A stretch of DNA of 64,000 nt from Cymbomonas tetramitiformis. Taxonomy: Eukaryota; Chlorophyta; Pyramimonadophyceae; Pyramimonadales; Pyramimonadaceae. Within the stretch, counting starts at the first letter, position 1. Each line of letters opens with the position of its first letter. Under the pieces are notes generated by a model, which saw only the letters and a list, made by a program, of their open reading frames with translations, had not been told where the DNA came from and ran no database searches. Location: positions 20,798 through 84,797 of the forward strand of contig LGRX02030603.1 of assembly GCA_001247695.2 (NCBI GenBank), read 5' to 3'. Shown in pieces: positions 21,996 to 61,096 of the stretch. A program made the translations under genes and the position numbers.

Positions 21996-23763
21996 CAAGG
22001 CACGGTATCGGTTGCGCCGATAGTTAGATCTATCGAAGTATCGGCGATAATTTCACACTATCACTATCAACCGATATGGTTATGCGTCACTATCACTATC
22101 GTTCGATGATGAAAATTTTGAATATTCAACTATCGCTATCGATCGGTTGCGCGCCAAGAAGGTATCATTATCATACGATAGTGCCACGCGGACTATCTGT
22201 TATCGTTCGATGTTGAGACTGATACTATTTGCCCATAACCGATTATGAAGGCACGCATCCCGCAATCCGCATTATCGGCCCTCATCCTAATTGAGTGGCC
22301 CACGGAGTCACTGTCTTGGCTATAGTGCAGCTTGGGACACCTACATTTGAATTTTGAAATTATTGGCCAATGCTATGTGGGAAATGTGATCCGCTCCCTG
22401 CTTGTCGATGGCAGATGGTGGCGATATAAGAACACTTCGCCGGCGCGGGTGACACCTTTGTTTCACTACTTCACTGGGTGTGACTGCAGACGAGAGTATA
22501 GTATTTTATTCTCATACCGACTTACCCCATCGTCAGTCAGCGTCATGACACGTGCAAGCCGAAGGCATTCCGGCCCGAACTGCAATGCATCTACGGCCCG
22601 AACCTGGCTGCCCTGTGCGGGCTGGTGGCAAGCCTGGCAGCCGGTCTAGGTCTTCAAAGCGAACACGCTCGGGGCAGGTCGTATTGCGTGCCCAAGGCAA
22701 AGGGCTGATAAAGCGTACCCAGCAATCTCCATTCGACCCAGCGGGCAACGATGAGAACGAGTATGTTGTTGCGTGCGTAAAGGGAGATAGGACTAGCTAT
22801 GGCAACGAACAATGGTTAGTTAGTTGGGAGGTAGATGGTAACCCTTTGGGGGATCATTGTGACACGTGGGAACCAGTGGAGAATTTGGCCGGCTGTAATG
22901 TGGAGATCGAGAAGCGAAGAAGATTTGCGCGCTACCTTGCGCTGCCTGATGCACCGCGCTCAACCGAGTTGTCACCCTGGTGGATTGAGCATAAAGACAT
23001 GTTCCCGAATGTCTTTCGGATGTATAGGCAATTTTTAGCCCCACCTGCCAGTTCAGCGGGTGTTGAGAGGTTGTTCAGTGGAGTGGGCCGCATGCATGGA
23101 GATCTGCAAAAGTGCACCTCCGAATGCACCTTGAAGCACATCATGATGGCTAGTGTGAACACCAAATAGGATAGCTGAACTGTGGTGATTACCTGGTTGA
23201 GCTGAACGTGTGAATCAGTGATTGCGAGTGAGTGCTGAATATTAATTTGACTTGCCACAGTGCATGTGTTTTGACTGTTTTCCTCGACCTACCTTATACG
23301 CTTAATGTTCGCGATAATAGGATTTGCGATAACGGCATCACATTTCAGTTGCCTTGTTTCCCCTTGCCCTTGCTGGCAACGACAAGCAAGGTAGCCCCAC
23401 CAAACCTCAAGTGTGATGCCTAAGCAAAACCTATTGTTGTAGTCTCAGAATCGGTCGTTTAATTTGTGCAGCGACTCGTGGCTTACGTGCAATGCCGATT
23501 ATCGCCAATTAGACAATTATTGGTAATTATTAGTTGCCTTCAGCATACTATCACTATCGTTCGATATGTATGTGCATAACTATCATTATCGGTCGATAGC
23601 CAACATTTTTAAATAGTAAACTATCACTATCAACCGATACTTTCATTATGATTATCACTATCATTCGATAGATGGCGTGCTGACTATCATTATTCACCGA
23701 TTGTATATTTTCAACTATCCGTTGGTAACCGATATAGGAAATTTCGACCGATACCATGCCTTG
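21996..23763 (+). mobile_element. hAT transposon, internally deleted (chromodomain-hATC derivative)
   Basis: A 1768-bp element with termini CAAGGCACGGTATCGG (21996-22011) and, inverted, CCGATACCATGCCTTG (23748-23763), 15/16 complementary. It is flanked by an exact 8-bp TSD CATATGTG (21988-21995 and 23764-23771), the diagnostic length for hAT. Subterminal regions at 22010-22210 and 23540-23750 are packed with ACTATCACTATC and TTCGATAGT-type motifs in both orientations, likely transposase-binding sites. It carries only a fused chromodomain-hATC ORF, so it is non-autonomous. Confidence 0.95.
22585..23169 (+). CDS. Chromodomain fused to hAT C-terminal dimerisation domain
   Basis: The frame is open from before 22552, but that codon is GTG; the first ATG is at 22585, giving 194 residues. 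Residues about 55-105 resemble a chromodomain, with EYVVACVKGDR, WLVSWE and CDTWEPVENLAG. The protein then passes straight into the hATC region: PPASSAGVERLFSGVGR followed by TLKHIMMA. Compared with the complete four-exon relative at 24809-28306, the BED finger, DDE catalytic core and all introns between are gone, yet the frame is kept. It could bind chromatin and dimerise with intact transposase, acting as a repressor; that function is inferred from domain logic only. Confidence 0.7.
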   Translation: MHLRPEPGCPVRAGGKPGSRSRSSKRTRSGQVVLRAQGKGLIKRTQQSPFDPAGNDENEYVVACVKGDRTSYGNEQWLVSWEVDGNPLGDHCDTWEPVENLAGCNVEIEKRRRFARYLALPDAPRSTELSPWWIEHKDMFPNVFRMYRQFLAPPASSAGVERLFSGVGRMHGDLQKCTSECTLKHIMMASVNTK

Positions 23764-24808
23764 CATATGTGTCATACATGTCATACGTGTCATACCTGTC
23801 AGACATGTCATACCATGTCATGTCATGTCGTGTCATATATTATTATGACAGTCGTCAGTACGGTCGACCATGACTGTACATGTCGAGTCGCGTCACATAT
23901 TATTATGACAGTCGTCAGTACGGTCGACGATGACTGTACATGTCGCCGGATGATAATGTCACATCATCTGGCATCCCTGTCATCGAGAGTTCGTACGTCG
24001 AACTCGAAGATGGCAAAGCAAAGATACATCTTGAATACAAACAAGAACCATCTTGCTTTAAGCATGTGCGGAACACGCATGCACAGTATGAACGAACTAG
24101 TCGTTATTGCAATACTGGTCGTTCAACCTACGTCTCGGGTTCACAACCCAATGGCGGTACCATCTAAGATGATGGGAGACGTATGGTACAAAGGGAGGAA
24201 GCGTTGTGCTTCAGCAGTTCTTTATTCAGAGACTGCAACTCACAACCCGCTTGACTGTTACACTTGTGTGTGCCGTTCAACAGCACAGTGTTTATTTGAT
24301 ATATTGTATAATATTTGTGGGCTCGCATATCAGCCCTAACAATAGTCAGATGTTATCATGCGTTGAGCGAATAGGTGACAAGCGAATAAAAACGACAAAA
24401 ACTCCCTCGCATACTGTATTATTACAAATGTAGGAAGGCTAAGGCGCGCACCCCCATGGAATGTCGACAATGAGCTGCCCGACTGTACCAGGGCGTGGTA
24501 TCGAAGTGTTTTTGGCGTATTGATATTTTTTCGATATCGCAAAAATCATATTGATCAATATCAATATATCGGCTAAGGGTATTGATCAATATCAATATAT
24601 TCCAGCCGTATATCAATCAATATCAATATTCCAAGGTTGAATATCAATCAATATCAATATTCTAAGCGGGAATATCAATCAATATCAATATGTTACCCGT
24701 TCTCACAATATATCAATATATTGATATATTGATACTAGCCAATGTCAATTTACTCAATTACTGAACAGGCAAGCAAGCAAGACAAAGTATGTTGATTTGA
24801 GTAATAAT

Positions 24809-27800
24809 TTACTCAATGTTTAGAGCTGCCATCAATGAATGCTGAATGGTACCTTCATCCAAAGATTTCCTAAGGTCCGAGTGCATGAAACTAACTTTTG
24901 AAAATGCTCTCTCTACCCCTGCTGAAGAGGCTGGCACTGCAAGAAACTGGCGTGCCATTCTACTTAAGTTGGGAAAGTCTTTTGCATGCCCTTTCCACCA
25001 TTCAAGCAGGGCGGTATCAGGTGGCACATCTGGCAATAGCAAATATCTATCAAACTCATCACTAGACACTTCCACCACTGTGGCTTCTTCCTCACATTCA
25101 TCATCAGAGTCCGCAACAAAAGATGCGACTGTCACCACAGCTACACCATCTTTGCCTTTGGCCTTTTTCCTAGCCTCTACCGCTTCTTGCTGTTGCACAG
25201 GCAAAGGCCGCCAGTCCTTCTCCCAAGCATGCCGCGCCCAGCTCACTGCTTGCTCTTTACTAAGGCCACCTGCCAAATAGCAACAGGGCTCACAATCAAC
25301 TTAAAGGGGGCATATAGCAAAATTAAGACACAAACATAAAACAACAAGATTCACGAAAAACATCATGCTAGTTTTGTGACAAGCCTATCCCGGCGCCCCC
25401 GAAAAAGAGGACAAGGTTGCTTCAGCCCGAGCTGTACTCACATACAGTCCCTTGCGAAGGCCTTGGCTGCCATGGAACAGCTAGTCACAAAACTAGCATA
25501 ACACAACCGGGCATGAACACTACATACAGAACACAGTAACAAACAGTAAACATAAACAGAAACTAAACAGAATCACCTTTATTCCAAGAGGTTGCTCCCT
25601 TGAACTTACGAAAAACATCATGCTAGTTTTGTGACAAGCCAATCCCGGCGCCCCCGAAAAAGAGGACAAGGTTGCTTCAGCCCGAGCTGTACTCACATAC
25701 AGTCCCTTGCGAAGGCCTTGGCTGCCATGGAACAGCTAGTCACAAAACTAGCATAACACAACCGGGCATGAACACTACATACAGAACACAGTAACAAACA
25801 GTAAACATAAACAGAAACACTAAACAGAATCACCTTTATTCCAAGAGGTTGCTCCCTTGAACTTAAAACTCTTGTATCGAAAAACATCATGCTAGTTTTG
25901 TGACAAGCCAATCCCGGCGCCCCCGAAAAAGAGGACAAGGTTGCTTCAGCCCGAGCTGTACTCACATACAGTCCCTTGCGAAGGCCTTGGCTGCCATGGA
26001 ACAGCTAGTCACAAAACTAGCATAACACAACCGGGCATGAACACTACATACAGAACACAGTAACAAACAGTAAACATAAACAGAAACACTAAACAGAATC
26101 ACCTTTATTCCAAGAGGTTGCTCCCTTGAACTTAAAACTCTTGTATCTCGGGTCCAAGATGGTGGCGACACAAAAATCCTCCAGTTTGCAGAGCATCAGG
26201 TCATTGAAGAACCTGGTTACGATTGCCCCGTGTAGCTTCGAACGAGCCTTCACGACGGCCTCATTATGAATCTGTACCGCCTTCCCTTCGTGTTTTAGAG
26301 GCGCTCCTGCAGCCATGGTGGCACCCAGCTTGCCAATGATAGGCAGGATCAAACTAATGGTAGGGTAGTGCGTCCCTTGCAGCAGCTTTGTGGCCGAAGA
26401 TGCATATGATAGCACCCAAGTGCTCTCACAGACGATGTCCCAATCGTCTCCCACCAGTTGATGGTCCTTGTAGACGCTGCCATCGACGTTTGGAACCGCG
26501 TTTGCCGCTTTCATGGGGTGCTCGATATCATATTGTCTCACAGCTGCCTACAAAAAAAAAAGAGTTGCATGCAGATTTCAAACGAAAAGGTGCAACCACC
26601 TATTGTTTTGATATGAGATCCTATGGTATGATATGCACCACACCGACTGCACAGACAATAAGCAAACGCGCGTGTTATGCAAAATGATACATGAACCACA
26701 CAGACAATAAGCAAACGTGTTATGCAAACAAAATGATACATGAACATCTCACGCACCTTATTCTTAACATACCACGCAGCCATAGTGCAAGCCCCACCCC
26801 ACCCAGAACGCGTATCGTTGTCCTGGGGCGGTTTGCTCTCCACTAAGCCAAGTCGCCGTTGGCAATCATACAGCAGCTTCGAACCAATCACCGAGTGGGA
26901 AAAGTGTCCGGTCATTCCACGCAATTTGCCGAAAACCTTTTTCACACGCTCTTGCTCCAGATATGCTTTCACAATCAAAGCCAAGGTATGGACTACGCAC
27001 TCAAAGCCATCGAAACAGTTCCAGCCATTCACGATGTTGGACGCGTTGTCAGAGACAGTGCAGTGCACAGAGCCAACCACGTTGCCCACCTTCTCATTCT
27101 CGTCGAATTCCCCTATCCCAATTTTAGCACAGGCAACCTTGGTCGCTATCTCGAGCTCATAGCCAGTGTGACGAACTGCTGAGAACGGTATGGCGCTGAC
27201 CAATCTCTCTTTAAGGTTGAACTCGACGTCAATGTAGTACACCAAAACCCCAAAGATAGCTATCCCACCTTCAGACCATATGTCCCCACTCACACTGCAA
27301 AGAATACCTTCTGTTAGTAAGGTCTTGATCTCTGACATGACGTGAATTTGGCCCTCAGCAGAGAGGGCACAAACCTGATCTAGTACCAGCTGATATGTTG
27401 GAGGGCGATACCCATCCTTGAAGATCTCGTGGAAAATGGCTCGAAACTCGGTATCTCGCTCAGGCAAGGTTAGAGGGCGCCCCTTTTTTACAAGCCACAA
27501 AGCGATGCGACGATGGATTCGCTCACGCTGCTCACTGGAGGGTTGGGGCAAAATGGCTGCAAGACTCCCACGGCGTGGCTGGTCCTTAGAAGAGGCCTCA
27601 TGCTCTTCCAGAATATCGTCAACCACCACATTCTTGTGACAGGTGACGAGATGCGCCCGTAAATTGGAAGTATTCCCGCAATATTCCTTTGCAGCACCAT
27701 CAGGCCCACAGTGCTTGCAGCGATAGTGCGTGATTTTGGTGCCCTCCATCTTGACATCGAAGTGCTTCCGGTACTTCGAACGCAACTTCTCGCTGGCGGC

Positions 27801-28306
27801 CTGAAAATCATCGCTTGCACCTGGAATATCGATGTGAACGAAACTTGCTCATGATTTGGGGAACGAGTACGTACGTATCAAAAGCATTCGAGTACGTATT
27901 AAAAGACTAACAAACGAACGAAGGATTGAGAAAATATACCCGATTGCTGAGAATTGTCAGCGTCAGAAATGGCCGCTTTCCTTGTTGTAGCTTGCTTCGC
28001 GATCTCATCCTGCTTGCGTTTGAGCTCTTGTCGAAAAGCCTCGATTACGGCTTCGTGACCTGGTAAATTGGCGAGTGGCTCCCAGGTGTCCGAGTTGGGG
28101 CCAAGATCCTCCCATTTTATTAGAAACTGCGGCTCACCATACTTTGAACGCTCTGCCAAAATCTCCTCTACAACATATTCTATATCGTCGCTGCCGTGAA
28201 GGTCAAAGGCATGCAGTTGCGTTCGTTTCACTGGACCCTTCCCCTGGCAAAGCAGTACATCTTCTGCGGCCCGTAATGGGCGCTTGCTACGACCGCGTTT
28301 GCCCAT
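24809..28306 (-). CDS. hAT transposase, chromodomain-BED finger-DDE core-hATC, four exons
   Basis: Exons on the minus strand: 28306-27940, 27820-26757, 26547-26103 and 25269-24809. All junctions are GT-AG and join in frame to about 778 residues. Exon 1 holds a chromodomain (EYVVEEILAERSKYG, FLIKWEDLGP, DTWEPLANLPG). Exon 2 starts with a BED-type finger (YRCKHC and HLVTCH), then hAT core motifs SGDIWS, SDNASN and FECVVH, the last being the CxxH of the insertion domain. Exon 4 carries the hATC box VPASSAGVERAFSKV. No inactivating lesion was noticed. Cut-and-paste transposition is expected from the family; chromodomain-guided targeting is inference. The gene fills the element between the subterminal arrays. 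Confidence 0.85.
25355..26148 (-). repeat. Three tandem about 265-bp repeats spanning the exon 3 / intron 3 boundary
   Basis: Units start at about 25355, 25610 and 25879 and end near 26148. Each contains the last codons of transposase exon 3 plus its GT splice donor (plus-strand text AATCACCTTTATTCC) and the following intron sequence. The tandem duplication thus copied a splice donor twice into the intron. The first unit lacks a 13-bp AAAACTCTTGTATC-type tail present in the others. Near-identity implies a recent event. Confidence 0.9.
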
Positions 28307-34020: not shown

Positions 34021-34052
34021 TTTGCCCTGGGGTTTGATGCGCTTTCTGTAAG

Positions 34053-35995
34053 GTGCGGGACAACAAGGCAGCTGACTGGACGCCCACCGAAGCCACCAAG
34101 AAGCTCAGCTTGTACACCCGGCTTGACCCGGTGTTCTACGCCGCGGTTAAGGTGCGCTATCCCATGGTGGCCGATCTTGCGACGGTTTCCCTCAGTGCCC
34201 TTCGCTCTCTGGTGGTTGAGATTTACCAGGCGTGGGCGGCGACGGAGGCCGGGAAGACTGCTCTGGCCAGCCCCTCTTCTGGTGGCGCGTCGGCTTTGCT
34301 CTCCAGCGACGAGCACCAGGTGCTCCTCGGCAAGATCCAGGAGTTGACTGAGCTGGTGCAGCGGCAGTGCGGGGCGGCTCAGCCGGTGGTGCAGCGGCAG
34401 CGGGATCCGCCGCAGCGGCAACACGGGCAGCGGCCGCCGCAGGGACGCCAGCCGCAGCGGCAGGGGCAGCCCCAACGGGGCTTTCGCATGGGTGTGAACA
34501 ACCCACCCGCCGTGGGCTTCGATCGCGACGAGCAGCGGGCGAAACCGCTATGTATTCGCTGCAAGAAATCCGGTAAGGAGCTTTATCACTTCTACCGCGA
34601 CTGCCCTCTTGGCGGTCGCCAACATTCCCCTGGCACGGCCGCAGCTTTCTGCATTCCCATCGACGACGAGGATGCGGAGGGCGTGCACGCCCTCGCCATG
34701 TGTGCCGTGTTCCAGGAGGCAGCGGATGAGGGGGCGGACGCCTTTGCCCGTGCGGCGACGGTGTACGGCCCGCCAGCGGTGCTTTGCGGGGGCGTTGTGG
34801 GGGGCATTAACGTGTCCGCCTACGGCTTCTCCGTGGACGCGGTGCCACCGGTGACGGGGACACCCGGTGAGGACATCCTCCAACGGCTGGACGACCTCGC
34901 GGCGGAGGTCAACGCAGCCGTTGAGCCTAAGGTACACTACACTCACGCCTCCTTCCTGCCGTCTGGGGGTGTTGACACGCAGGCTTCGGCTCTGGTGTGT
35001 GACTCTGCCGAGGCAGGTGACACACCGGAGAAGCAGGTTCCGGCAGGTGGTGCGGCGGCATCGGCATCCGCCGTGCCGGCCCCTGCTATGCCTGTCCTGG
35101 AGGACGAGGAGGAGCTCCTGAAGCTCTACGGCTACGGCGAGCCCGTGTCCCTTCAATCGGCACGGGTGACCACTACGGCGAGCACGGACGGTGAGTTCAA
35201 AGGCATTGTGGAGAATGTCAACCGCGCCGCGGTTGTGCCGGTCGACCTGACTGGCTACGACACGGATGATTACGAGGACCTCCCCGACGGCAGCTTCAGG
35301 CTGAGACCGCAGGCTGTCTTGGCGGATCACGCGCGCCAGCCGCGGGCTCCTGCCGTTTCGGCGAATCATGCGTCGGAGCCCGCGGCCCACACACCTCCCT
35401 CTGGTGGTGCCGTTGGGGATTGGCGTGACGGTGCTCACCGCACCTCTGGTTGCGGCAAGCCACCATGGGGCTTCCCCGCTCAGCCGGGTATGTGGGGGAT
35501 GCCCTTCCTTCTTTCCTTCATTCTCTTGATTTCAGTCATGGGAGTGGGGGCTGCCACCTTCACGGTGGCCAACGAGACCGGCCTTCTGCGGGTGTCGGAT
35601 GAGGAGGCACCGCTTGTTGCGGTGCCGTGTGCTATTCCGCCTCGTCTCCACCGGCGGGAAAGAGGCGGCAGGGCCTCTATATGGCTCCGGTGCCATGGCA
35701 TCCCGGGCCGCCGCCGCCTGCCATGTTATTTGAGGACGGTCCTCCGCTGTCGCCGGCATCGTCTTCAGATGACGAGGCCCCACCGTCGGGCAGCACTTGG
35801 CAGCACCCCGGTGCGGTGCAGCCTCCCGTGATCGACGAATCAACAACACCGACTCCGTCAAATTCTCTGGCGAATGATTTTTCAGTGATCGACACCTTAC
35901 ACTTTGGCCGCCCCGTATTGCTCCGCCGTGCTACTGCGGGCTACTACGGTGATCGATGTGGTGAAGGTGCTCCTCTGAACTTTGACCCCGAGTAG
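34053..35995 (+). pseudogene. GC-rich gag-like fragment with a frameshift
   Basis: The main frame runs about 34053-35640. Its apparent start is a GTG, so the N-terminus is probably cut at the junction near 34021. It shows a helical N-terminal part, a Gln/Arg/Pro-rich stretch (QRQRDPPQRQHGQRPPQ), a knuckle-like CIRCKKSGKELYHFYRDC (CX2CX8HX4C), long acidic and Ala-rich regions, and one hydrophobic segment (FLLSFILLISVMGVG) near residue 490. After about 35640 the coding signal continues in another frame (LFEDGPPLSPASSSDDEAP) to a stop at 35995, indicating one indel. GC content is far above the flanks. The gag identity is inferred; the knuckle spacing is unusual. It may derive from the same GC-rich retroelement family as 61742-63120. 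Confidence 0.45.
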
Positions 35996-41062: not shown

Positions 41063-41430
41063 GGTTTCAACTCTTTTGATGGTGCCTCTATGTTGCTGAT
41101 CAAGATTTAGTTGATCTGTTGCTTTGGAAGGTTACGTACCACCTGATACTATCTGAGCTTGGAGCTTTTCAATTTCATCCGGGTTTTTTTGCCCTGCATA
41201 ACTTACGTAGAAATTCGGCTTTGAGATGGGTTCCGCATATATGCGCATTATGCTTGCAGCACCCGCATAATTACGGGTGTATACACCTTGTGTAAAACTC
41301 CTGCATAAAAGGTACATACAGCAAATCTCCGGAATTTATGCACCCCCCGTATTTATTCGCATTATGGTTGCGACACCCGTAAGTATGCGGTATACTGCAT
41401 ATCTCGTAAGTATGCTGCATATTTGTGGAT

Positions 41431-41723
41431 TGTTACGGATCGAAAGATGACAGACGCCCGCAGTCGCGATGTTGGTACGTCGTCGTCGATGTCACACGCA
41501 TAGTCGATCATCGATCTGTAACAGTCCGATCTGTACGAGTACCACTGAAATGCGCGAAAGGATTATCATCCTCCGCGTAGCTCAGTTGGTTAGAGCGTCG
41601 CACTAGAGAAGCGAACGTCACGGGTTCAAATCCCGTCGTGGAGCACTTTCGCCCCATGACGATATATATGATTTGACCCGGCTCGTACAGTGAAAATCCC
41701 CGCACCGATTTCAAACCCTAACA
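41431..41723 (+). repeat. 5' LTR of the TRIM
   Basis: TGTTACGG...CCCTAACA, 293 bp. The tRNA gene occupies positions 141-214 of the LTR. The terminal CCCTAACA is the same octamer that ends the LARD LTRs. Confidence 0.95.
41571..41644 (+). tRNA. tRNA-type gene embedded in TRIM LTR, apparent anticodon AGA
   Basis: A 74-nt cloverleaf: acceptor CTCCGCG/CGTGGAG (one G-T pair), D-arm GCTC/GAGC with TAGCTCAGTTGG as A box, anticodon stem TCGC/GCGA plus an A-A mismatch, loop CTAGAGA (anticodon AGA, U33 kept), 5-nt variable loop, T-arm ACGGG/CCCGT with GGTTCAAATCC as a perfect B box. AGA would read serine, but the short variable loop is not that of a tRNA-Ser and the discriminator is C, so decoding ability is doubtful. 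Both Pol III promoter boxes look functional. No strong T-run terminator follows closely, so transcripts could run into the element. Confidence 0.75.
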
Positions 41724-41724
41724 T

Positions 41725-41736
41725 TGGTATCGAAGC
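41725..41736 (+). promoter_or_regulatory. Primer-binding site of the TRIM
   Basis: TGGTATCGAAGC, 1 bp after the LTR. It matches 10 of 12 positions of the TGGTATCAGAGC tRNA-iMet site used by most plant LTR elements. Confidence 0.8.
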
Positions 41737-41997
41737 GACGGTTCGGAAACCGCCTCAGATGTAACGGCATAAGGCACACGATGTGACCTACGCTAAGATC
41801 GCGTATGCTCGGGCACGGTGATGTGACCTGCGCTACGATCGCGTATGCATGGGCACGATGTGACCCGCGCTGATGACGTGGACACATTCCACACAACCCC
41901 CGGTACGAGCGGACAAGGTTGGCTGCCACGTCATCACATCTGAGGTCGGACCTCTGAAAAGTAACTCGACACGAATGTCGTGAGGTCACGACACTTT

Positions 41998-42011
41998 AAA
42001 GAGGGGAGATA
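41998..42011 (+). promoter_or_regulatory. Polypurine tract of the TRIM
   Basis: AAAGAGGGGAGATA abuts the 3' LTR. It and the preceding TGAGGTCACGACAC mirror the LARD and chromovirus ends. Confidence 0.85.
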
Positions 42012-42303
42012 TGTTACGGATCGAAAGATGACAGACGCCCGCAGTCGCGATGTTGGTACGTCGTCGTCGATGTCACACGCATAGTCGATCATCGATCTGT
42101 AACAGTCCGATCTGTACGAGTACCACTGAAATGCGCGAAAGGATTATCATCCTCCGCGTAGCTCAGTTGGTTAGAGCGTCGCACTAGAGAAGCGAACGTC
42201 ACGGGTTCAAATCCCGTCGTGGAGCACTTTCGCCCATGACGATATATATGATTTGACCCGGCTCATACAGTGAAAATCCCCGCACCGATTTCAAACCCTA
42301 ACA
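42012..42303 (+). repeat. 3' LTR of the TRIM
   Basis: TGTTACGG...CCCTAACA, 292 bp. It differs from the 5' LTR by one C in a C-run after the tRNA and by one G-to-A (CTCGTACAG versus CTCATACAG). Confidence 0.95.
42152..42225 (+). tRNA. tRNA-type gene embedded in TRIM 3' LTR
   Basis: Identical 74 nt to the copy at 41571-41644, as expected from reverse transcription. The same structure and reservations apply. Confidence 0.75.
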
Positions 42304-42308
42304 TGGAT

Positions 42309-43720
42309 CCATAAGTATGCAGCATACTACATATCGTGTAAGTATGCTGTATATTTGTGGATCCGGAATAGTTGCAGGTAGTATGCATCGCGCATATATA
42401 TGTGATATATTTGCATTATATATGTATCACATGACGCGCTGCTGTGTGCTTTCGATGTGCGAACGTAAGTACAGTACCACTCAGCAGTAGATGTATTTCA
42501 CGGCTGAGTGTAGCTGCCTCGATGTGCTAGTCCACAGCAAGCGTGCATGCGTTACTTCGCAGCACTCCGAGTTATGAACGAGATACGCTGCGTGCGTGGC
42601 CCTAAACTTAACGAATGCGCGTGTACAAGCATCGGACTCTACAGCAAGACAAACGAAGTGCGCCGATAAAATACTAAAAGCATTGCGCAAACAGAATTAA
42701 AAGTTTACAAAAATACTAGTTTACGCCTGCATCTATCAACTGTAGCAGAGGTCAACGTTTTTCAAAGCAGGGTCTAGGCTAATTCATCTAATGAAACAAA
42801 CATGGCATTTCGCGTCCCACTCCTTTCCACATTGATATGATAACAGCCATACCTGAAACACACACAAGCAAACGTTCGGTCAGTGAAAGACTTTCCAACC
42901 AGAGAAATATGACAGTCTGTGCAGTGGGAATATTTCCCCCTCACCACAGATCCGTGAAGCATTTCTCAAGCGCAAATCAGTTCCAAAAAATCTACTGTGT
43001 GCAATTTGTGCAACAAATTGCATATTGTAAGTCAACGATGCCGCAGTGTGAAAATCACGTTACGTGATTTCGCACAGGGACGTTCGTTGTTTCAACCAAT
43101 GGTCACATACAGAGTGGGGGGCGCAACCCACAATATATTTTGTCTCGATTACACTTGGGAAGACAAATTTTAGCAACCGCTCCCACTGCTGTGATGGTTT
43201 GTAGTGGATTTTGGAAATCGCCAGGAGGCAAAAGGGGGTGCCTAAATTGTAAAAAAATACCTTGCGAGGTTTGGACCGTTCGCCGTTAGCAGACTCCAGC
43301 GAACCCAACCTGTGAATACACGGCGTGTGTGATCAGTATTTAAAACGAACGTTTGAAATAACAGCACGGAAACAAAAAGAAGACTGACGGGTGAGAAGAC
43401 CCGCTGCTGTGCATGCAAGTGGTTCAGCCGCCAGTCTTCTTTAATGCATACCACGGAGTTCGTGAAATTTAATAGTTCCTACTGCTTCGTTCTCGAATTC
43501 GGGTGCGCGAGTCAACTCACGTCATCATCGGTCCCGAAAGAATGTCCCGTCACATGGGCATCGCATCGCTCGAGGCGTCGATCGTCACGTCGCGTCGTGC
43601 TCGCGATGTGTTCAGTATCGAGTACAGTATGGAGTATGATACTCATACTGATACTAAGTAAGTCCGTATCAATATCGAATATGAGTACTGCAGTATCTTG
43701 TATCTGTAAATATGGGTGTA
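42309..43720. other. No gene recognised
   Basis: 1.4 kb without a convincing ORF. Around 41385-41425 and 42310-42360, on both sides of the TRIM, the motif AAGTATGCTGCATAT recurs, so the TRIM landed in a small AT-rich repeat. Short Cys-containing frames on the minus strand (42774-42962) show no known domain. Confidence 0.5.
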
Positions 43721-50267: not shown

Positions 50268-50865
50268 CGGAGGTTTCCTCGGTGCAACCCGGGGTTATTA
50301 TACCGTGCTGGGATGCCCATCATACATGTACCATTTATGTCACGCTGTATAATTCTATTTCGTGATTTGCTGAATCCCTATCCAGCGAGGGCGCATCTCT
50401 ATAATTATACAAAAACACCTGTGTCTTCAATGATTCGCGACAGTGATGAATGGTATTTGTGGCTGAGATATGCAGCTTGCATTCACGTTGACGGATTTAC
50501 ACGCTGATACGTGCGCGAACTCGTAAATAGAGTCTTGCGCATATCTGCCCATTGTGGCTACACCGCAATTGTTCGTTTATACAGTTTTGACGCACCACAG
50601 ATACACGTTCATATCATTCGTGTATGATTCGAAGTCTTTTCGTTTTGGAATTGCTTTGATTATATTTGCGCTTGCGACGTATCGTCCTGATTATGCGGCG
50701 CGATCCCAAGTTATATTATGATCGGTCCTCGCGTACCACTGACGCAGATGAGAATGATGACTTGAAATTCTTCTTTTTAATCGAACATGTTAACAAATGG
50801 TTTGACGAAGTTCCCTTGAGGCATATATTTAGACAATGTGAACATTCATATCCATTTCAGGGCGC
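50268..50865. other. No gene recognised
   Basis: About 600 bp before the chromovirus LTR. A 71-codon plus frame (50666-50881) runs into the LTR and shows no known motif. Confidence 0.4.
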
Positions 50866-51558
50866 TGATACGGCTATGTAAACAAGCGCCGTGAATCGTA
50901 TATTATCAGTATACGAAATAAACACTGCAAAGTTTGAACAGCAATGCAAGTGTACGGATGAGCGGGTTTGTGAGTGCAGTCTCTCTAAGAAGATCTGCTG
51001 AAGCACAACGCTTCCTCACTTTTGTACCTTACGTCTCCCATCATCTTAGATGGTACCGCCATTGGGTTGTGAACCCGAGACGTAGGTTGAACGACCAGCA
51101 TGGTAATAACGACTAGTTCGTTTATGCTGCGCATGCGAGTTCCGCGCATGCTGAAAGCCAAGATGGTTCTTGTTTGTATTCAAGATGTATCTTTGCTTTG
51201 CCATCTTCGAGTTCGACATACGAACTCTCGATGACAGGGATGCCTGATGATATGCGCACTATCATACGATGGACATTATCATCTGGCGACATGTACAGTC
51301 ATCGTCGACCGTACTGACGACTGTCATAAATATATGACGCGACTCGACATGTACAGTCATGGTCGACCATACTGTCGACTGTCATAATAATATATGACGC
51401 GACCGACTGTCATAATAATATATGACGCGACCGACTGTCATAATAATATATGACGCGACCGACTGTCATAATGTATGACATGACATGGTATGACATGTCT
51501 GACATGTATGACACGTATGACATGTATGACACATATGTCATCGGTCATGACCTTGACA
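50866..51558 (-). repeat. 3' LTR of the chromovirus
   Basis: 693 bp, reading on the minus strand TGTCAAGG...CGCCGTATCA (one change from TGTCAGGG). It contains more copies of the GACGCGACCGACTGTCAT unit than the 5' LTR and a small insertion near 51253. Confidence 0.9.
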
Positions 51559-51577
51559 GATCTCCCCTCTTAAAAGA
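51559..51577 (-). promoter_or_regulatory. Polypurine tract of the chromovirus
   Basis: On the minus strand, TTTTAAGAGGGGAGATC precedes the 3' LTR, identical in core to the LARD and TRIM tracts. Confidence 0.8.
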
Positions 51578-52594
51578 GTTGTGACCTCACAACGGGCATA
51601 CCTTTGTATATGTCTATGATGTCTTTGTTGTTGTCGCTTCTTGCTGGTACCAGTCTTCTCACACCGATTTGAGGCGTCCCTCATGGTGTTTTTAGGTTAT
51701 TGGGGGGAACTGAGTCCACTTTAGTCCCTCACCTTAGGCATTTAGCCCTACAGTTCTTAGGATGTAGCCCACCTTTCCGGAAATCGTATCGTATTTCAGA
51801 GTGACGTTCCAAGGTTCAATGAAGAGCGTTTTCGTGATACAGATTGACGCTGGATTACTGATTGATCCACACGTTATCATGTATGTACTAGACGATTCAA
51901 AGCATCCGAAGTCTACGTTACGGATTATTTGCGCTAGCCGTCGTCGCTTTGCGCGAACGATGATCCCACGATTTAATAATTTATAATCGAACGATTCTCG
52001 GCCTGATTTAGTGCACCCAACCCTTCCTCCCCTCCTTAAGCTACTTTGGAGGATCCTAGGTGGCGATGGGGAGCCCGATTTTTGGGGCTTGTTTTTAATG
52101 CAAACGGAGCGGCCCTGCTTAACGGAATTGGACTTATAATCCTCAACCGGTCTGCTCAACTCCTCAATGTTTTTGTCCAGTACGCACGCTTTGACGAACA
52201 TCTATCGCGATGAGTGAGAATGGATTCGCCACGTACTAATGTGAAATTTATTTAGTTATGTTTGTCAAGCACAACTTAGGATCACAACTCCGTCTACCTC
52301 AGTCGATGTCTCCGGTAGCTTCGGATGACTGGCCAAGAATCCGATGACAAACCACGGTTTTGGCAAAGGTAGCATTTAGCAGTTTTTATTTATCCACGGA
52401 TATGATATCTCGCATGTGTGCGTATCTGTGCAAGGGTATGATTTTGAACAAGGCTCACTACACCTTTAGCAAGGAAGGATCAATTCCCGCTTCAATCCAA
52501 CATAATGATAAACATTAAGAGCAAGGTTATATAGATGATCGACATGTATTAGTATATATTACAAGAAGTAAAGGCATAAGGCTTAATATAATGT

Positions 52595-55500
52595 CTAGCC
52601 TTCATAGGCAGCTATAATGTCTGCTGCATTGGTCAGCTCTGTGGCTTTGACCCAGGTGTCATGCTCAGGACCGTAGCCTGCATATCGTACTAAATAGTAT
52701 TTGACACCTCTAGTGAACTTATCCGAGAGTATATGTGATATCTCAAGCAGTGGTTGCCCTTCTTCGGTGATCATCTGTGGCAGAGGCAAAGGTGCTTGGA
52801 TCGAGTCGTTGTACAGCTCTAATCTGGAAACAGGCTGTACCGGATGAATACGGATATCAAGATCTCCGAAATCTAACTCGTATGCACGTCCATGGCTAAG
52901 CACTTTGGAAATGGTGAACGGCCCAATATATGGCTGCTTAAAGTGTCTGCCTGCCTCTGTCAAACCAGTCCAATGAATAAACTCGGTCCGTAAAAGAACT
53001 TTTTGCCCAACTGCAAACTGCTTAGGCATGTGAGTCTTATTGAATCTGGCTTGGCTAATCTCTGCTGCTCGGGAAATGTTGTCTACCGCGTTGGCATGAA
53101 CAGCCGAGTACTGGTCAAAATGATCTCGAATAGCTCTTTGTATTGGAACAGGAGCTTCTGGCGAAATAGTGATAACCAGGTCATGAGGCGAAAGTGGTTG
53201 CGCCATCGAGTCGAGATAAAATGGTGAATAACCAGTTGATGCAGAAACGGTATTGTTAATTGCAAACTCCACCAGAGGCAACTTGTCCTCCCACGAATTG
53301 GCTGAAGTATCATTGCAACAACACCTGAGGATGTAAAAAAATACTACTTAATCAGTTTATAAACCAGAGGATGGTGAAATCAAATCATGAATCAACAATT
53401 TGAAAATTACCTGAGGATGTCCTCAATGAAGGCATGGCTCCTCTCATTGGCAGCATTCGACTGTGGATGGTGTGACGATGTCATGGACAATCTCGTACCA
53501 GTAGATTTCCACAGTGTCTGCCAGAATGTAGAGGTGAATCTAGGGTCTCGATCTGAGATGATGTTCCTCGGAAGACCATGGAGCTTGAAGATATGCTGCA
53601 TATAGATGGAAGCAGTATGCTGAGCTGTCCAGATCATGCTGAAGGGAATGAGATGACAACGATGAGAGAATTGGCACATTACCACAAATATACTGTCGTG
53701 CCCATTAGTGGTGATAGGCAGATCAGTGATCCAATCAAGAGATACATCTAGCCATTTTGTCGTCTTAGGCACGGAATATCGTATATGTGCCTGACCATAA
53801 GGCTTGTGTCGCCTCGTTTTCTGGCGCTGACAAATGGGGCACTCCCGAATGTACTTGATGGCTGCCGTTGTCATTCCTGGCCAATAATACCGGCTACGCA
53901 GAAGATGAAGCATGCGATTTTTGCCTACATGACCAGAAATAGTGGCTGAGTGGCACTCATGAAGAAGAATGTGGCGAAGTTGTGTGATCTCACCGTCATC
54001 TGTGGGGACTTTAGTTGTTGGTGGAATGTACAGCTGTCTGCCATATATGGTCTTACGATAGATCAACCCCTGAATGAGCTCGAAGCTGTAGCTGCTGACT
54101 GACTGTGACGAAGTCGATGATGTCAGCTTAGCCAAAATAGTCTGTGCAAATGTGTCACGATCATACTCGGATATAATGATGTCGTGTAGCTGATGAGCTG
54201 ATGAAGAAGATATAAGAGCAATGAATGTAGGATCTGCAGATGGAATGACCTCGCTGATGTCCATATGATGAAGACAATCAGTGAGTTCAAAAAGTGCAGA
54301 GATACGCGTGAGTGCGTCTGCAACCTTATTCTTCTCGCCAGCAATGTGCTCTATACGGAAGTTGTATTCGGAGAGCTCATCCAACCACCGTGCCTGTTTG
54401 GGGCTCGGTGTGGATTTGGTCTGGAAATAAACCAGTGGCTGATGATCTGAGCGTACAATAGTCTCAGGAGCTCCCAACAAGATGTGGCGAAAGAATCGGA
54501 AGCCTTCCACAATGGCAAATAGCTCGATCTCAGGAATAGGCCAACGTCTCTGTGTATCGGATAGAGTGACGCTGTGATGGCCACATGGCTTCATACCTTT
54601 TCCTTGATCCTGGAGTAATACTTGGCCAACGTGTGTGCCTGATCCATCGACCTCCAAAATAGATGGCAGTTTCTGATCTGGAAGTTGTAATACTGGAGCG
54701 TTACAGATGGCACTTTTGAGGTTATCAAATGCCTGCTGCTGCTCAGTTTCCCGGACAAACTCTGCATTATCTTTAAGGAGACGATTGAGAGGTTCGGCAA
54801 CTTTGGAGAACTTTGGTATGAATCTCCTAAATTGACCAACCATGCCCAAGAATGACCGAAGGGATGACTTGCCATCTTTAGCCATACGGCGTAGAGGCTG
54901 CTTTCCAACGGTAGGACCATAAGACACTGGAGGCTGAATTGCCATGACTGCTCGGATTCTGTCTTCGATGATGGATAGGCCTGCTTCAGAGATGTGATGT
55001 CCGATAAAGTCTATAGATCTGACGAACAACTCCACCTTGGAAGGCCTGATGTAGAACTGGTGATCTCTGCAACGCTGGAGGAACTGTCGAACATGCTTCA
55101 TATGGCTGTCAAAATCTGGACTGTATACAATAGTGTCGTCCATGAATATGACAAGGAACTGGTCGATGAAGTCAAAGAATGCCCGGTTTCCTACACGAAG
55201 TGCTGTTGCAGGAGCATTGGTCAATCCGAAAGGCATGACTGTCCATTCATAAGAACCGCATCTGGTGCGAATAGCAGTTTTATGAATGTCGTCTGGATGA
55301 ATGGGGATTTGGTGGAAGAACTGGTTGAAATCAAATCTACTGAACCAGCGTGCTCCCTTCAGCTGCTCTAGTAGGGTGTCATGTGGTGGTAGTGGATACG
55401 TGTCCTTTATGGTGATGTTATTCAGGGCACGATAATCACAACACATCCTCCACTTTCCCCCTGGCTTAGGAGCGAAAATGATTGGGCACCCATGTGGCGA

Positions 55501-56394
55501 TGATGATGGACGAAGGATACCCAACTCGACATATTTTATGATTTGCCGTTTGAGCTCCTCCATCATGGGTGCTGGAATGGTACGCACTGGCTGTGATGGA
55601 GGCTTATGTCCAGGTTCGATGTTGATTCTATGATATCCACCTTCAAACCGTTCTGGCCTATGACCAGCTGGGAGATCCTCCTGGAATACGTCTGAAAAGT
55701 CTTCTCTCACTTGATCACGTGCTGCTGTGATCTCGGGGTCTTCCATTGTGGTGTCTGAGTCTGATGCTGCAAAGACCAATTCACCATCGACCACGGAGAG
55801 GAAAAAGAGATATGCTACGGCTTCTTCAGCCGAACCACTGGATCGAATGCGACGGAGATGTTTTCTCATAGTGGTGGCGCTGACCAATTCCATTTCAGGA
55901 AGGCCATCTGAGTCTGAGTCTGGAGTCTGCTCAACTCTGGACAATACTGTGCGAATACTGGAGCCTGATGAATGCTTCCTAGTGATCGTCAGATTTTTGG
56001 TCTGAAAGTCAATGTGTGGATTCCTCCTCTCCAACCAATCTTGACCCAGAATGACAGTGAATGGTTTCATGTCAATGATGTAGAAATCTTCTGTATCCTT
56101 ATACTTGCCCAAAGAAAATGTAGGCTTGGGAAGATAGGATGTGCATGGTAGTTGGCTTCCTCCAGCCAATCCCACTGAAAATGATGAAGAATCTGTGGGA
56201 GCTATACCAAGCTGAGCAGCGAACTGTCTGTCGATGAAAGACGATGTGGCTCCTGGATCTACCAAAATGTGAGTACTCTGTCCATAAACTTTCCCTTTAT
56301 ACAACAACAGCTTCTTCTGTGATTTCAGCCGTGCTGTTTGAGACTGCATCTGTGCGATGTGTTCTGTGGGATTGTCCATCTGCTGAAACTGCAA
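52595..56394 (-). CDS. pol: Chromovirus Pol: protease-RT-RNase H-integrase-chromodomain
   Basis: Exon 1 is 56394-53411 (the frame is open further upstream and overlaps the end of gag, compatible with frameshift expression). A candidate intron is 53410-53325, and exon 2 is 53324-52595. Domains in order: aspartic protease with HILVDPGATSSF; RT with CDYRALNNITIK, SRFDFNQFFHQI, MPFGLTNAP and VIFMDDTIVYS; RNase H with ILEVDGSGTHVG; integrase zinc finger (HECHSATISGH then CPICQRQK); catalytic core with SLDWITDLP, SDRDPRF and ANERSHAF; GPY-type tail IGPFTISKVL; chromodomain YYLVRYAGYGPEHDTW ending at the stop. The YxDD box is FMDD, an accepted variant. Apart from the 86-bp insertion the frame is intact. 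Replication through RNA and chromatin-guided integration follow from the family. Confidence 0.9.
53325..53410 (-). other. Intron-like 86-bp insertion in integrase, flanked by 12-bp direct repeats
   Basis: Minus-strand GTAATTTT...TTTTTTTACATCCTCAG, with a pyrimidine tract and AACTGATTAAG as branch-site candidate. Removing 53325-53410 joins ILR-CCC in frame; retention gives a stop at once. The 12-mer ACCTGAGGATGT (plus) occurs at 53323-53334 and 53409-53420. Confidence 0.75.
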
Positions 56395-56468
56395 TGTCAG
56401 ACTGGATAGGACTTCTTCTGAGATACTCTCAATCCGGCCACTTGCTTCAGTGGCATCTTCAGGCTGAT

Positions 56469-57867
56469 CTACCCTCGGGGTCCTCTCATCACCGGTACCT
56501 GTGCAGTACCCTGAGAGTTTCCCTGAGGAGCTGGAGCTGATGGAACTGTATCTGGAGTTGCAACTGCTGCATTGATGCTATGCTGATTTTTCAGTTCCTT
56601 GACCAAGGTGTTGATCGTATTGATGAGTTTGCCAGACCCATCCTTAGCACCCTGATTCTTCTGTGGCTGTCTCTGATTCTGAAAAGGATTCTGAGCTGGT
56701 GGCTTACCCTTGATCTCCTTTCCATCATTGGTCCTGGTGGCAAAACAATCCTTTTCGATGTGACCAACACGATCACAACGATGGCAGGTCTTATTATTCT
56801 GTGATTTTCCTTTTCCTTTTCCTTTGCCCTTGCCTTTACCACCTTTTCCTTTGTTCCGATTCTGATTGGAGTTCTGGCTGCCATTCTGATTCCAATTCCG
56901 ATTTTTGTTGGATCTGTCATATGGCTTCTGGCCACGTCCTCTGTCCTTATCCTTTTTGGCTGGACCTCCAGATGACTGCTCCTTCTGCCCTCGATAATGA
57001 AGAGTCTCTGACTGCTTTGAATGAATGACATAGTTCAAGTCGAGCAGTATCTGTGTGGTTAGTGACCACGACATATTATTCCTTTCTGTCTCTGTCAGGA
57101 ATCGTAAATGGAACTGTCTGCGAAGTTCTGGATCTATGCTGTTGACAAATCTGTCCTTTATCAACACATCTCCCAGTTCAACTGCTGCCAATGCAGCCAG
57201 TGAAGTGAATGTGCGTAGATAATCTGAGAAAGTCTGGTTTCCTTGAATCAGTGACATTAGGTGTTTTTTGGCCACTGATCTTTTATGGGGGTTACCAAAC
57301 TGTCTGAGGAAAATCCCTTTGATCCCTGCATATGTGGCATCTGGTTGATTTGCCACGACCTGGAAATAGTGTCGGTCATTATTATGTATGAGGGTCAGGA
57401 AAACTGTGATCAGGTCTTTGTCTCGGAACTCCTGGATACGTGAATTGAAAGTATCTATCCACGGTTTCCAACCAAACCTCTGCGTCCATTCCTGATTTGT
57501 ATTCCTTTGGTGGTGTCATTTTCACCTTGGGAACCAAACTAGGTGGTGCTGGTGCTGGTGCTGGATCTGCATCTGGATCTGTGAAGACCATTGGAGGATT
57601 GTCTGCAGTATATTCATCATCTGGTTCCTTAGGCTCGTTTTCAGAATCCCGATATCTACTCATATCAGGCTTCATGCGGCTGATATTGTCGAAGTACCCT
57701 ATCTTGTCGAATCTGGTCTGGGTATTATCATAACCAACGAGCCATTTTGGGATCTTGAACCGACTGTATGCATCATATGAGCCTAAGATGTCAAGAACCA
57801 TGTAGACGGATCTGCATTGATGGGTGGAATATCTGGATCTTCTGCTTCTGCCATCTAAGAAAAACAA
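56469..57867 (-). pseudogene. gag: Chromovirus Gag, frameshifted
   Basis: Coding signal is split between 57867-57382 and 57356-56469, with the gap bridged in the next frame (coding text such as DKDLITVFLTLIHNNDRHYF lies in that frame), so there is an indel near 57455. A further shift near 57790 is suggested by an alternative ATG frame starting at about 57855 (MAEAEDPDIPP). The capsid-like part includes IKGIFLRQFGNPHKR and LRTFTSLAALA. The C-terminal part has a basic GKGKGKGKGK stretch and a CX2CX4HX4C knuckle (CHRCDRVGHIEKDC). The frameshifts probably disable this copy's Gag. Confidence 0.85.
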
Positions 57868-60800
57868 AACACAACACCAAAATATCTTCAGCTAACTGAG
57901 TGTGTGTTGATATATATATATACCTATGTTATATATGGTATATCTGTATATTATGATGAGGTTATACATGTACATATATCCACCTTCTTCCCCCCTCAAG
58001 GAAGTGTGTAATATAGTGGCAGTTGTCAATTGCCAATACCTCATTCAGCATGCATTCCTATAGGAAGCAGCTTACAGTTTTAGGGTTGCAGCCCTACAGT
58101 CCTTGGGTTGTAGCCCTGCAGTTTTTGGGTTGTTGCCCTACAGTTTTTGGGTTGTTGCTTACTGTATTATCATGTCTGTGATGATTTAGCATGATATAAT
58201 AATGCCAAAAAACGAAGTTTTTCGAAATAATAGTGGCATTTTAGGGCATATGTGGTTACAGTGGCCCTGTTACTCAATATGGTGATTAGGGTGTTACATG
58301 ATATCAGTAACCCTAATTCAGGTAAAAAATAAGCAGTATAATGTTTTTGCAAAGATTTTTAAGCAAAACTGCATTTAATACCTACATAAATGTAAGGTGG
58401 TTTTCAGGAGGTACGTTACACCCCTGTTACACACATTTAATTTTAGGGTTGTTACAGGGCGTTACACATGCTGCATAAATCAGGGATTGTTATTTGATAT
58501 ATAAACATTCATTTCAGCAAAAAAATCAATCCGAAATTTTCAAAATGTGTTTTACGTACAGCATTTTGAGCGATTTATTGTTACAGCAATATGTATACCC
58601 CTATATATTCAACACCTAATATTTAGGGTGTCACACAGATATGACATGTGTCATTATGATTTCCTGATACCTCAATAGGTATAAAATCATAATTTTAAAT
58701 AAAATGGGCACACATTTTTCATTTTGAAATTAAACGTGGAGCATTTTTACCCATTTTACAGCTTTTTCAGCTATCTAAAATATTGCTTTGGTGACATATC
58801 TCAGTGTATATGTGGAATGTAAGTATAGAATCACTGTAAGGAACTTCATTTTTGCATATGACAAATTTCATAGCAAATAAGTGAGTTGTGCTGTATATCA
58901 ACATTTATGGTTGACAACATTCTGGGTTTTACTGATTCAAACCCATGCACAGCAAATGTACTTTTCTGATTATGTATAGATTTATCAACTTAAGTGGAAA
59001 CACCCACTTTAGTGATATTTTTCAACCTATGATTTGTTCTGAGCATAGGTCTGTGCTCTTAAGATTTATCAAAGTGATATATCTTATTTAGAACAAATCT
59101 GGACTTTACTGGATACAATCACAGCAACTTGACACAGCACATTTATATGTGTGTGGTTGTCCTGAACACTATTGTCAGATATCATGTAAATACTGATCTG
59201 TGTGTTGCATGCAATTGATCTGATCAAGTCTGATTCAACTGTCAATATGCAACGTAGTTGTTGTGGTTGCTCCAGCGATGATATGTGGGATGAGACGAGT
59301 GGACTGCACCCAACAGTTACCAGCTGTTTTATGGGTGCAGTATTTTGCCTTCGGGTCTGGAGATAACTCCATCCAGCCCTACAGCATGTTGTCTTATCCT
59401 GTTCCCTTATGTATCGCCATCATTGACACTTTCCACGCACATGTGTTTGGAAAGTGGTATCTATATTACCATATACAATATAGTTGATCTATTCACTCTG
59501 AGTCAGTGAATCTCAACATGTATAATGAATGCTAGTGTATGTGCAGTGTGTAGTACTGCTGATTAGTACTTATGCCAGTGTGTGTGTGTGTTTACTTATA
59601 CACACTCTGCAGAATATGTTCTGGATATCACAATATCCTAGACAATTTATCATGCAAGACAGTCAGCATACCATGTACTGATTACATCTAACATGATATA
59701 TATAGTTTAGGGATCATTGTAATTCCATGCTAATCTCATTACAAAATGAGTTGCTGATAGATTTTACATGAAGCTCAGGTGAGCATTCCGTCCAGTAATC
59801 CACCATAGAATGTACATGTGATCTGGAGAGCATCTCGGCTCCACTTGGACATGACAAACTAATTATGGTGTTGAGATTACTTTCAGGCACCCTTTGCTAC
59901 ATGGATTCGAATATAGACTAGCATTCACTGCAATATGCTTATGCTCTATGTACTACAGCTGGTATCGTGATCAAGCTGTACGGTATAATAAAGCATGTAC
60001 AATTCACAATCAATGCAATCATTCAGCATAAGATATGTGCATAGTATAAAAGTGTATGCACTGCATGTTGATGATTGTTGTAAGTGAAATAAGTGCATGT
60101 GTGTGTGTGCTGATTCGCACACACATGTTGTGAACAGATCATTGTGATGCTAATAAGAGTAATGCTGATGATTAAAGTATTTGTGCAGCCATCAGAACAC
60201 TTTGGAATTTGCTGCAGTATGATAATGATACTTTCACAGCAACATAGTGGTAATGTATCCAAAGCATAACGATCATGTATACAGTCATTCTGCATATGAT
60301 TTCGACGAGCTTATACATATGTGCTTCTCACTGCATGTAAACACATCAAAAATTGTACGCGCTAAAATCGAACGTTCTTCGCATGTGACGAAATCATGAA
60401 GAACGTATATCGTGCTGACAGGCCATAAATCATTGTACGCGCTGGTATTGTAAACAGTGCGAAGGAATTATTTGCAAAAATCACTGATATACGTCGCATA
60501 CGAATGCGAGCGCTGACATGTATACGAATCAAAATTCTGTCGATGACCATTATGTAATATATCATTCTGGACAATTTTTGAAAGTGATTCATACAAGCGC
60601 GCGCATGCTGCGATTGACTTCTGTAGAATTATGCGACCATCGCGCATGCTGTCATCTGTAAATTAGTGACCATCGCGCATCAACATGTATGAAGCAATTT
60701 AGTGCAATCATGAAAATCGTGATACTGCGCTGATGATTTTTAACGCGAAAACGATTTCGCCGATGATTTGTCGCATCTGCGAACATGCATACATTTGCGA

Positions 60801-61096
60801 ACCATTTATGCGAATACGTTTCATTGTTGCGTCGATGTATGCCCTGCGCACACCTTATCGCGTATGTGTGCGATCAGCTGTTTCTGCGTGTGTGCTGCGA
60901 GAAATCTCCTCGCGCAATCTCTGCGCTGTCGATATGCAAGTGTATATTATTCGCCCTGCAGATATTCAATATTATGCGAGCGCTGTCGATATGCGCCCAC
61001 CTGCAAACCTGCGAACAATATTAAATATACTACGTCTATCGCTGCACCCACTTGAGTTCTCGAGTATCGTGCCTTGACGACTTTTAGAATACCATC
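57868..61096 (-). other. Long non-coding 5' leader of the chromovirus
   Basis: 3.2 kb between PBS and gag with no ORF over about 114 codons. It contains GGGTTGTTGCCCTACAG-type tandem units at 58080-58150 and a (TG)n run at 59578-59591. Much of it aligns by eye with the LARD leader (13040-16160), and its PBS-proximal part with 7092-8157. Conservation across autonomous and non-coding elements suggests packaging or translation-control signals. Confidence 0.75.
61081..61094 (-). promoter_or_regulatory. Primer-binding site of the chromovirus
   Basis: On the minus strand, TGGTATTCTAAAAG, 2 bp inside the 5' LTR end. Same as in the two other copies. Confidence 0.65.

Follow-up and report, generated by a model that had tools for sequence, protein, structure and literature searches.

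A family of Helenus-like TRIM retrotransposons with a tRNA-like gene in each LTR in the green alga Cymbomonas tetramitiformis

What a tRNA-like gene might be doing inside each LTR of a miniature retrotransposon is the question raised by the locus at 41431–42303 of the window—by which we mean the whole 64,000-nt stretch of DNA analyzed here—from Cymbomonas tetramitiformis, a prasinophyte green alga (Chlorophyta, Pyramimonadophyceae). The locus holds a complete TRIM of 873 bp on the plus strand, composed of a 5' LTR of 293 bp with TG...CA ends (41431–41723), an internal region of 288 bp (41724–42011), and a 3' LTR of 292 bp (42012–42303); both LTRs, as delimited by repeat comparison, begin with TGTTACGG and end with CCCTAACA on reading the sequence. 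Since the LTR pair differs by one substitution and one indel, the insertion is young; and comparison of the flanks gave TGGAT as the TSD at 41426–41430 on the left and at 42304–42308 on the right. The initial annotation had described a recent and complete TRIM with an exact 5-bp TSD and near-identical LTRs, which description proved right, coordinates included. Directly after the 5' LTR stands the PBS-like sequence TTGGTATCGAAGCGACGG (41724–41741, plus strand), also found in the loci L101–L104 discussed below, and immediately 5' of the 3' LTR the polypurine tract (PPT) AAAGAGGGGAGATA (41998–42011, plus strand). As to a primer tRNA, the pattern complementary to the PBS gave eight places, in six of which ARAGORN found no tRNA, the other two, on C5918 (L103) and C14774 (L104), being LTR–PBS junctions. 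No stop-to-stop ORF of at least 120 aa overlaps the TRIM in any frame, and one frame holds 13 stops. The element itself sits within a repeat, of which AAGTATGC-type arms occupy both flanks (41377–41430 and 42305–42364), with identities of 87% in direct and 88–91% in inverted comparison, and which is perhaps a MITE or a satellite.

The tRNA-like genes lie at 41571–41644 in the 5' LTR and at 42152–42225 in the 3' LTR, both on the plus strand. In each of them ARAGORN called a tRNA-Ser of 74 nt with anticodon AGA, and the Rfam model RF00005, whose gathering score is 29, matched at 58.4 bits (E 4.8e-10); the two genes are the sole Rfam matches above the gathering threshold within the 64-kb window. 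The A/B-box scan of the 5' LTR found, on the plus strand, a perfect A box, TAGCTCAGTTGG (LTR 148–159), and a perfect B box, GGTTCAAATCC (LTR 193–203), a result equaled by none of 300 LTR shuffles. A full 74-nt cloverleaf with good boxes in each LTR had been noticed from the letters alone. By sequence reading, the acceptor stem is paired at 7/7 positions with one G-U, the D stem at 4/4, the T stem at 5/5, and the anticodon stem at 4/5 with one A-A mismatch, while the variable loop is short, of the class-I shape, and the discriminator is C. The minimum-energy fold of the gene is the cloverleaf, of an unexceptional stability (z −1.58, equaled by 17 of 200 shuffles).

Should this be a working tRNA gene that the TRIM spreads, it would add decoding capacity to the host, which reading can appeal to the full cloverleaf with its 58.4 bits and to the tRNA calls that ARAGORN made in all eight of the TRIM loci scanned. 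An AGA anticodon in a tRNA that has no long variable arm of the serine type, the C discriminator, and the A-A mismatch in the anticodon stem nevertheless speak against decoding, as does the distance from the host's own tRNAs, for among the 13 host sequences compared (of 63 listed) none was closer, as a source tRNA, than 55/74. In the sections on Helenus elements in Kojima (2024; PMC10886601), moreover, functional tRNAs are predicted in few families. We thus hold decoding to be extremely improbable; the anticodon, the variable arm, and the discriminator would fit a tRNA kept for another role, most likely that of a Pol III promoter.

To establish how far the tRNA belongs to the family as a whole, the host genome of 851.7 Mb was searched with both the element and its LTR. 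The element search, which scored the best 40 of 1404 candidates, gave 52 matches, 51 at 95–100% identity and a short one of 55 bp at 82%; the LTR search scored the best 40 of 841. Because a genome search of this kind scores the best candidates only, the copy counts were taken from short LTR-block patterns, sought genome-wide with up to 3 mismatches, with the same patterns reversed as the control. The U3 block gave 331+280=611 matches, the A-box block 342+307=649, the B-box block 363+317=680, and the U5 block 369+315=684, while the reversed patterns of the four blocks gave 0 matches genome-wide; the four blocks being equally frequent, the tRNA is as widespread as the LTR itself. Among the matches listed (up to position 43217 of C4522), the exact A-box block adjoined 75 of the 84 exact U3 matches and the exact B-box block was present at 8 of the other 9, so that the tRNA sequence stood beside 83 of the 84. 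The TRIM family is present in a few hundred copies; the main family is not one in which most members are without the tRNA, and the genome-wide block counts rule out a chance tRNA insertion in a single lineage.

The sample then drawn from 57 contigs comprised 122 full LTRs, all unique, together with 72 internal regions, and is biased towards the copies most like the query; LTR matches not spanning positions 1–293 were left out of the 122-LTR alignment, outside which L100–L104 also remain. A perfect 5-bp TSD flanked 29 of the 40 complete two-LTR copies in this sample, along with 4 of the 5 complete three-LTR arrays, which figures rule out a satellite or a tRNA gene array. The remaining 11 two-LTR copies showed no TSD, which in 3 of them was unreadable because the copy ran on into another internal region. 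Two contig pairs likely represent the same insertion twice, C3247/C22156 among the copies with a TSD and C4745/C7809 among those without. Arrays with 4, 5, 5, and 6 LTRs also occur, a TSD being seen in none of them. As candidates for further tRNA-LTR families, the tRNA-Ile loci L091 and L093 were rejected, having no repeat pair of at least 40 nt flanking the tRNA; in L092, likewise a tRNA-Ile, the tRNA is flanked by repeat pairs of 119 nt (94%) and 84 nt (86%), and no TRIM was recognized by eye.

The alignment of the 122 sampled LTRs showed boxes that were near invariant, with 1 deviating cell in LTR 148–159 and 5 in LTR 190–201, so that decayed A and B boxes are not a feature of the other copies of the main family. 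Among the 105 distinct LTRs, the tRNA was less variable than the remaining LTR, with variable sites at 16 of its 74 positions versus 85 of the 219 elsewhere (Fisher p 0.007). Variants common to several contigs fell within the tRNA in 3 of 38 instances, against an expected share of 25% (p 0.014); for changes private to one contig the figure was 15 of 81, a depletion that was not significant (p 0.20). The contig-shared variants can only have spread by transposition or recombination, and their depletion fits selection at the copying step, the contrast between private and shared variants being itself not significant (p 0.17). For the promoter reading, this conservation within the family is modest evidence.

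The internal region, for its part, folds strongly as RNA (z −2.92; none of 200 shuffles was as good), with both arms, GATGACGTGG and CCACGTCATC, kept in 67 of the 72 internal regions, and this fold may constitute a packaging signal. Its similarities lead to two Gypsy-type elements of one lineage in the same window. Element A spans 12483–24340 on the plus strand and has few long ORFs left; its 5' LTR (12483–13020) is preceded by the TSD ATAGT, which recurs at 24341–24345 after a 3' LTR split by an insertion (21967–24340). A leader module of A at 17042–17156 matches TRIM internal positions 49–165 with 85% identity over 117 nt, a second leader module at 17397–17549 (plus strand) matches the internal region of the TRIM copy in L100 with 84.5% identity over 155 nt, and the PPT zone of A, at about 21932–21966, is 88% identical over 34 nt to internal positions 254–287; these modules stand in the same order as in the TRIM, and the leader modules hold similar, imperfect versions of the arms of its fold.

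Element B runs on the minus strand through 50860–61741, with its frame broken, from the 5' LTR (61741 to about 61095) through gag (57515–56472), the protease-RT-RNaseH-integrase frame (56577–53410), the chromodomain (53347–52598), and a PPT carrying the same 34-nt match as A (51593–51560), to the 3' LTR (51558 to about 50860). By its Pfam domains—Gag, aspartic protease, RT, RNase H, integrase, and chromodomain, the core integrase match being under the cut-off at 26.9 versus 32.6 bits—B appears as a chromovirus-like Ty3/Gypsy element. With A it has six stretches in common, 248 to 2228 nt long and 71–96% identical, plus three shorter ones; neither leader module was found in B at the sensitivity used, and no TSD of B was evident. 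This chromodomain Ty3/Gypsy lineage is the likely helper of the TRIM. Because A and B have TGGTATTC as their PBS where the TRIM has TGGTATCG, we regard these two elements as relatives of the helper, the true helper being probably a sister family that would carry the PBS TGGTATCGAAGC. A further candidate, L100 (C11292), which might have been an autonomous helper with tRNA-bearing LTRs, was rejected, since the TRIM copy there holds an inserted LTR element of foreign origin, which bears a gag-like ORF and has GACGG duplicated on both sides. Gag-like ORFs of that LTR element, recognized by eye, lie at 34038–35831 of the window, with no Pfam match, and at L100:949–3647, and parts of the two are 71–79% identical in DNA.

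The reading that we favor, and deem probable, is that of a Helenus-type TRIM (TRIMp3) with a captured and probably non-decoding tRNA gene, whose Pol III transcript the proteins of a Gypsy relative would mobilize. TFIIIC and Pol III, at the A and B boxes of the 5' LTR, would start a transcript near the 5' end of the tRNA; part of this transcript would read through to the 3' LTR and end just past the second tRNA, the tRNA thereby becoming the repeated R region. The genomic RNA, folded like a Gypsy leader, would then be packaged, reverse-transcribed, and integrated by a chromodomain Ty3/Gypsy relative, as the shared leader and PPT modules suggest; the integration would leave the 5-bp TSD that we observe, and the LTR–LTR arrays would form subsequently, presumably via recombination.

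A transcript of that kind depends on what follows the tRNA. The minimal stop for Pol III is TTTT, which occurs in 36 of the 122 LTRs and, in 35 of these 36, at one site, whose first T is the second base past the tRNA, by a C-to-T change in 33 LTRs and by an extra T in 2. The published assembly having been built with nanopore reads (PMC10675990), homopolymer lengths need caution; the main difference between the haplotypes is a substitution. On the plus strand TTTT is absent from 71 of the 72 internal regions, but a scarcity elsewhere was not significant in comparison with dinucleotide shuffles (probability of none 0.73), since the TT content is low; and the substitutions seen in the LTR, 1 of 9 possible TTTT-making versus 6 of 15 AAAA-making, are too few to decide. 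Selection against TTTT, not significant by either the shuffles or the substitution counts, was rejected as an explanation.

The 29 TSD-flanked copies comprise 12 with TTTT in both LTRs, 15 with TTTT in neither, and 2 with TTTT in one, so that elements with the canonical stop of a tRNA gene have transposed. A tight stop at TTTT would shorten the RNA, which counts against Pol III transcription; because those 12 intact insertions have TTTT in both LTRs, the terminator behind the tRNA of the 5' LTR must leak, and either such a leak sets the RNA end or Pol II makes the genomic RNA. If the latter were the case, Pol II would transcribe from U3 and the tRNA would be an independently transcribed passenger, an insulator, or a chromatin opener. 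The same 12 of 29 copies, which were copied though short Pol III transcripts should predominate, can be cited for such an arrangement, and the low TT content explains the scarcity of TTTT elsewhere; in contrast, the position of the tRNA would yield a clean R region, and a passenger would need some other benefit for its boxes to persist in a distant relative (L102, below). We consider transcription by Pol II rather unlikely. Returning to Pol III, a fuller version—in which the tRNA is the whole R region, Pol III would start immediately ahead of it, pass the leaky stop of the first copy, and halt at that of the second to give a template of perfect terminal redundancy, TTTC and TTTT are two settings of the leak, both of them copied, a chromodomain Gypsy element is the partner, and the leader fold packages—is put forward as a tentative possibility.

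The diverged relatives bear on what is kept when the rest of the LTR decays. Four loci, L101–L104, were found through the PBS complement pattern, so that they have the PBS in common by construction, and with four loci the evidence on their boxes can be suggestive only. L104 (C14774) is an ordinary family member with TTTT. In L101 (C2324) the first 64 nt of the LTR are 86% identical to the family and the remainder 63–67%; the tRNA segment, at 66%, a score that none of 1000 shuffles equaled, is no better kept than its surroundings beyond those 64 nt, and was recognized by neither ARAGORN nor Rfam nor the A/B-box scan (96 of 300 shuffles were as good). L102 (C111) shares with the family LTR a U3 motif of 18 nt, the beginning of the tRNA including the A box (17/19), and the B box (9/9), and almost nothing else; the scan found TAGCTCAATTGG and AGTTCAAATCA at 2 mismatches, a result equaled by 2 of 300 shuffles, while in the same stretch ARAGORN called no tRNA, no cloverleaf fold was obtained, and the T stem is gone by eye. 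The PBS and the two LTR motifs are present in L103 (C5918), where 38 nt instead of 197 separate the motifs and no tRNA lies between them, which represents either a loss of the tRNA or a state before its capture. Of the two diverged copies retaining a tRNA-like segment, one would thus have kept its boxes longer than its cloverleaf, which is suggestive of a promoter; the unexceptional boxes of L101 and the missing tRNA of L103 count against the Pol III model.

These copies also weigh upon the reading in which the tRNA-like fold is not a promoter but a signal for RNA processing or packaging, through RNase P and RNase Z sites or as a tRNA mimic. The intact cloverleaf of the main family would suit such a signal, and cleavage at the 3' LTR might define where the RNA ends; identical cuts within the 5' R region, however, would be expected to destroy the template, and in L102 the boxes persist where the T stem looks lost and no cloverleaf forms. 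We accordingly judge a processing signal to be very unlikely, and retain the promoter as our preferred reading.

The initial annotation had known of no LTR described as having a tRNA gene inside it, and in this respect was mistaken: the Helenus elements, as set out in the relevant parts of Kojima (2024; PMC10886601), are exactly such TRIMs, with tRNA-derived sequence in the LTRs, known from fungi, six animal phyla, and Selaginella, so that an undescribed kind of element is ruled out. In that account the Pol III promoter reading (TRIMp3) is argued without experimental proof, multiple origins are proposed, and Helenus elements form tandem arrays and have internal similarity to autonomous elements. 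The Cymbomonas TRIM resembles them in several respects: it is non-coding and its 873 bp lie within the Helenus sizes of 311–1263 bp; tRNA-derived sequence is present in both LTRs; the boxes TAGCTCAGTTGG and GGTTCAAATCC fit the Helenus motifs, TRGCY and YGG in box A and GGTTC in box B; and the 5-bp TSD, found in those 29 of 40 two-LTR copies, is of the plant and fungal type. A PPT and a PBS bound the internal region in Helenus, the PPT being clear here and the PBS-like sequence being one for which no primer tRNA was found; anticodon and isotype disagree in most Helenus families, and here, by eye, an AGA anticodon stands without a serine-type variable arm. We assign the TRIM to the Helenus type on its size and lack of coding sequence, its tRNA-bearing LTRs, its boxes, and its TSD.

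The differences concern, first, the host, a chlorophyte alga, the plants with Helenus according to the same source being so far Selaginella only; second, the apparent helper, which here is a chromodomain Gypsy element combined with a 5-bp TSD, whereas there the fungal Helenus elements point to Copia, with a TSD of 5 bp, and the animal ones to Gypsy, with one of 4 bp (PMC10886601); and third, the full cloverleaf with two LTR haplotypes, with and without the TTTT terminator. Cassandra, with which the comparison had initially been drawn, is also a TRIM with a small-RNA gene and a Pol III promoter in its LTR and with tandem arrays; the gene there is the 5S rRNA, whereas Rfam finds only the tRNA in the Cymbomonas TRIM. 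Ajax, as presented by Kojima (2024; PMC10886601), is likewise a proposed TRIMp3 with a 5-bp TSD, but has a partial 5S rRNA in its LTR and comes from two nemerteans. The TRIMs of Chlamydomonas and Volvox are those of green algae and include tandemly arrayed ones, the words tRNA and polymerase III not occurring in the main text of that report (Gao, 2016; PMC4717578); and the ant TRIM paper, where it mentions Pol III, does so only regarding targeting by other elements (PMC3532108). The literature searched contained no account of tRNA-LTR TRIMs from green algae.

The tRNA-LTR TRIM being already known, what is new relative to those sources is Chlorophyta as a host group and the pairing of a Gypsy helper with a 5-bp TSD, together with the resemblance of the internal region to the leader and the PPT found in a lineage of chromodomain Ty3/Gypsy elements of this window, and the coexistence of TTTT and non-TTTT LTRs. 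The tRNA-bearing TRIMs are hereby extended to Chlorophyta, along with a candidate helper lineage sharing leader and PPT modules; and in a genome with a few hundred copies, of which many are young, and with two terminator haplotypes, the Pol III origin of the TRIMp3 genomic RNA becomes directly testable. In such genomes, mobile elements inflate the tRNA gene counts.

The best named matches of two proteins of the window belong to C. tetramitiformis, and the protein CYMTET_32376 has a coding sequence at 100% identity in the genome from which the window comes. The genome of C. tetramitiformis, published at 0.85–1.2 Gb, is described as rich in LTR elements (PMC5741210, PMC10675990), and the window offers further examples of mobile DNA. 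At 61667–63397 an ORF with Gypsy integrase and chromodomain runs into a cytosine-5 DNA methyltransferase domain; P0003, a relative of that ORF, had 105 scored genome matches, all at 99–100% identity (8097 first-look candidates), in a family with open frames of up to 2759 aa, and this methyltransferase-carrying retrotransposon family is very young and very large. A hAT-like transposase ORF lies at 26541–27848 on the minus strand, its closest named relative being CYMTET_44832 (98% over 64% of the query), which has BED and chromo domains; and the 1297-aa ORF at 1458–5351 resembles, by eye, the DNA polymerase B of Polinton-like viruses. Regularly spaced tandem arrays of tRNA-like genes, finally, occur elsewhere in the genome, at C21113:14894–17529 (G000), on C4825, on C23810, with a spacing of 233 bp, and on C25144, with one of mostly about 1150–1190 bp; the tRNA of L078, whose score is the same as that of these tandem genes, is a tRNA-Lys(CTT).
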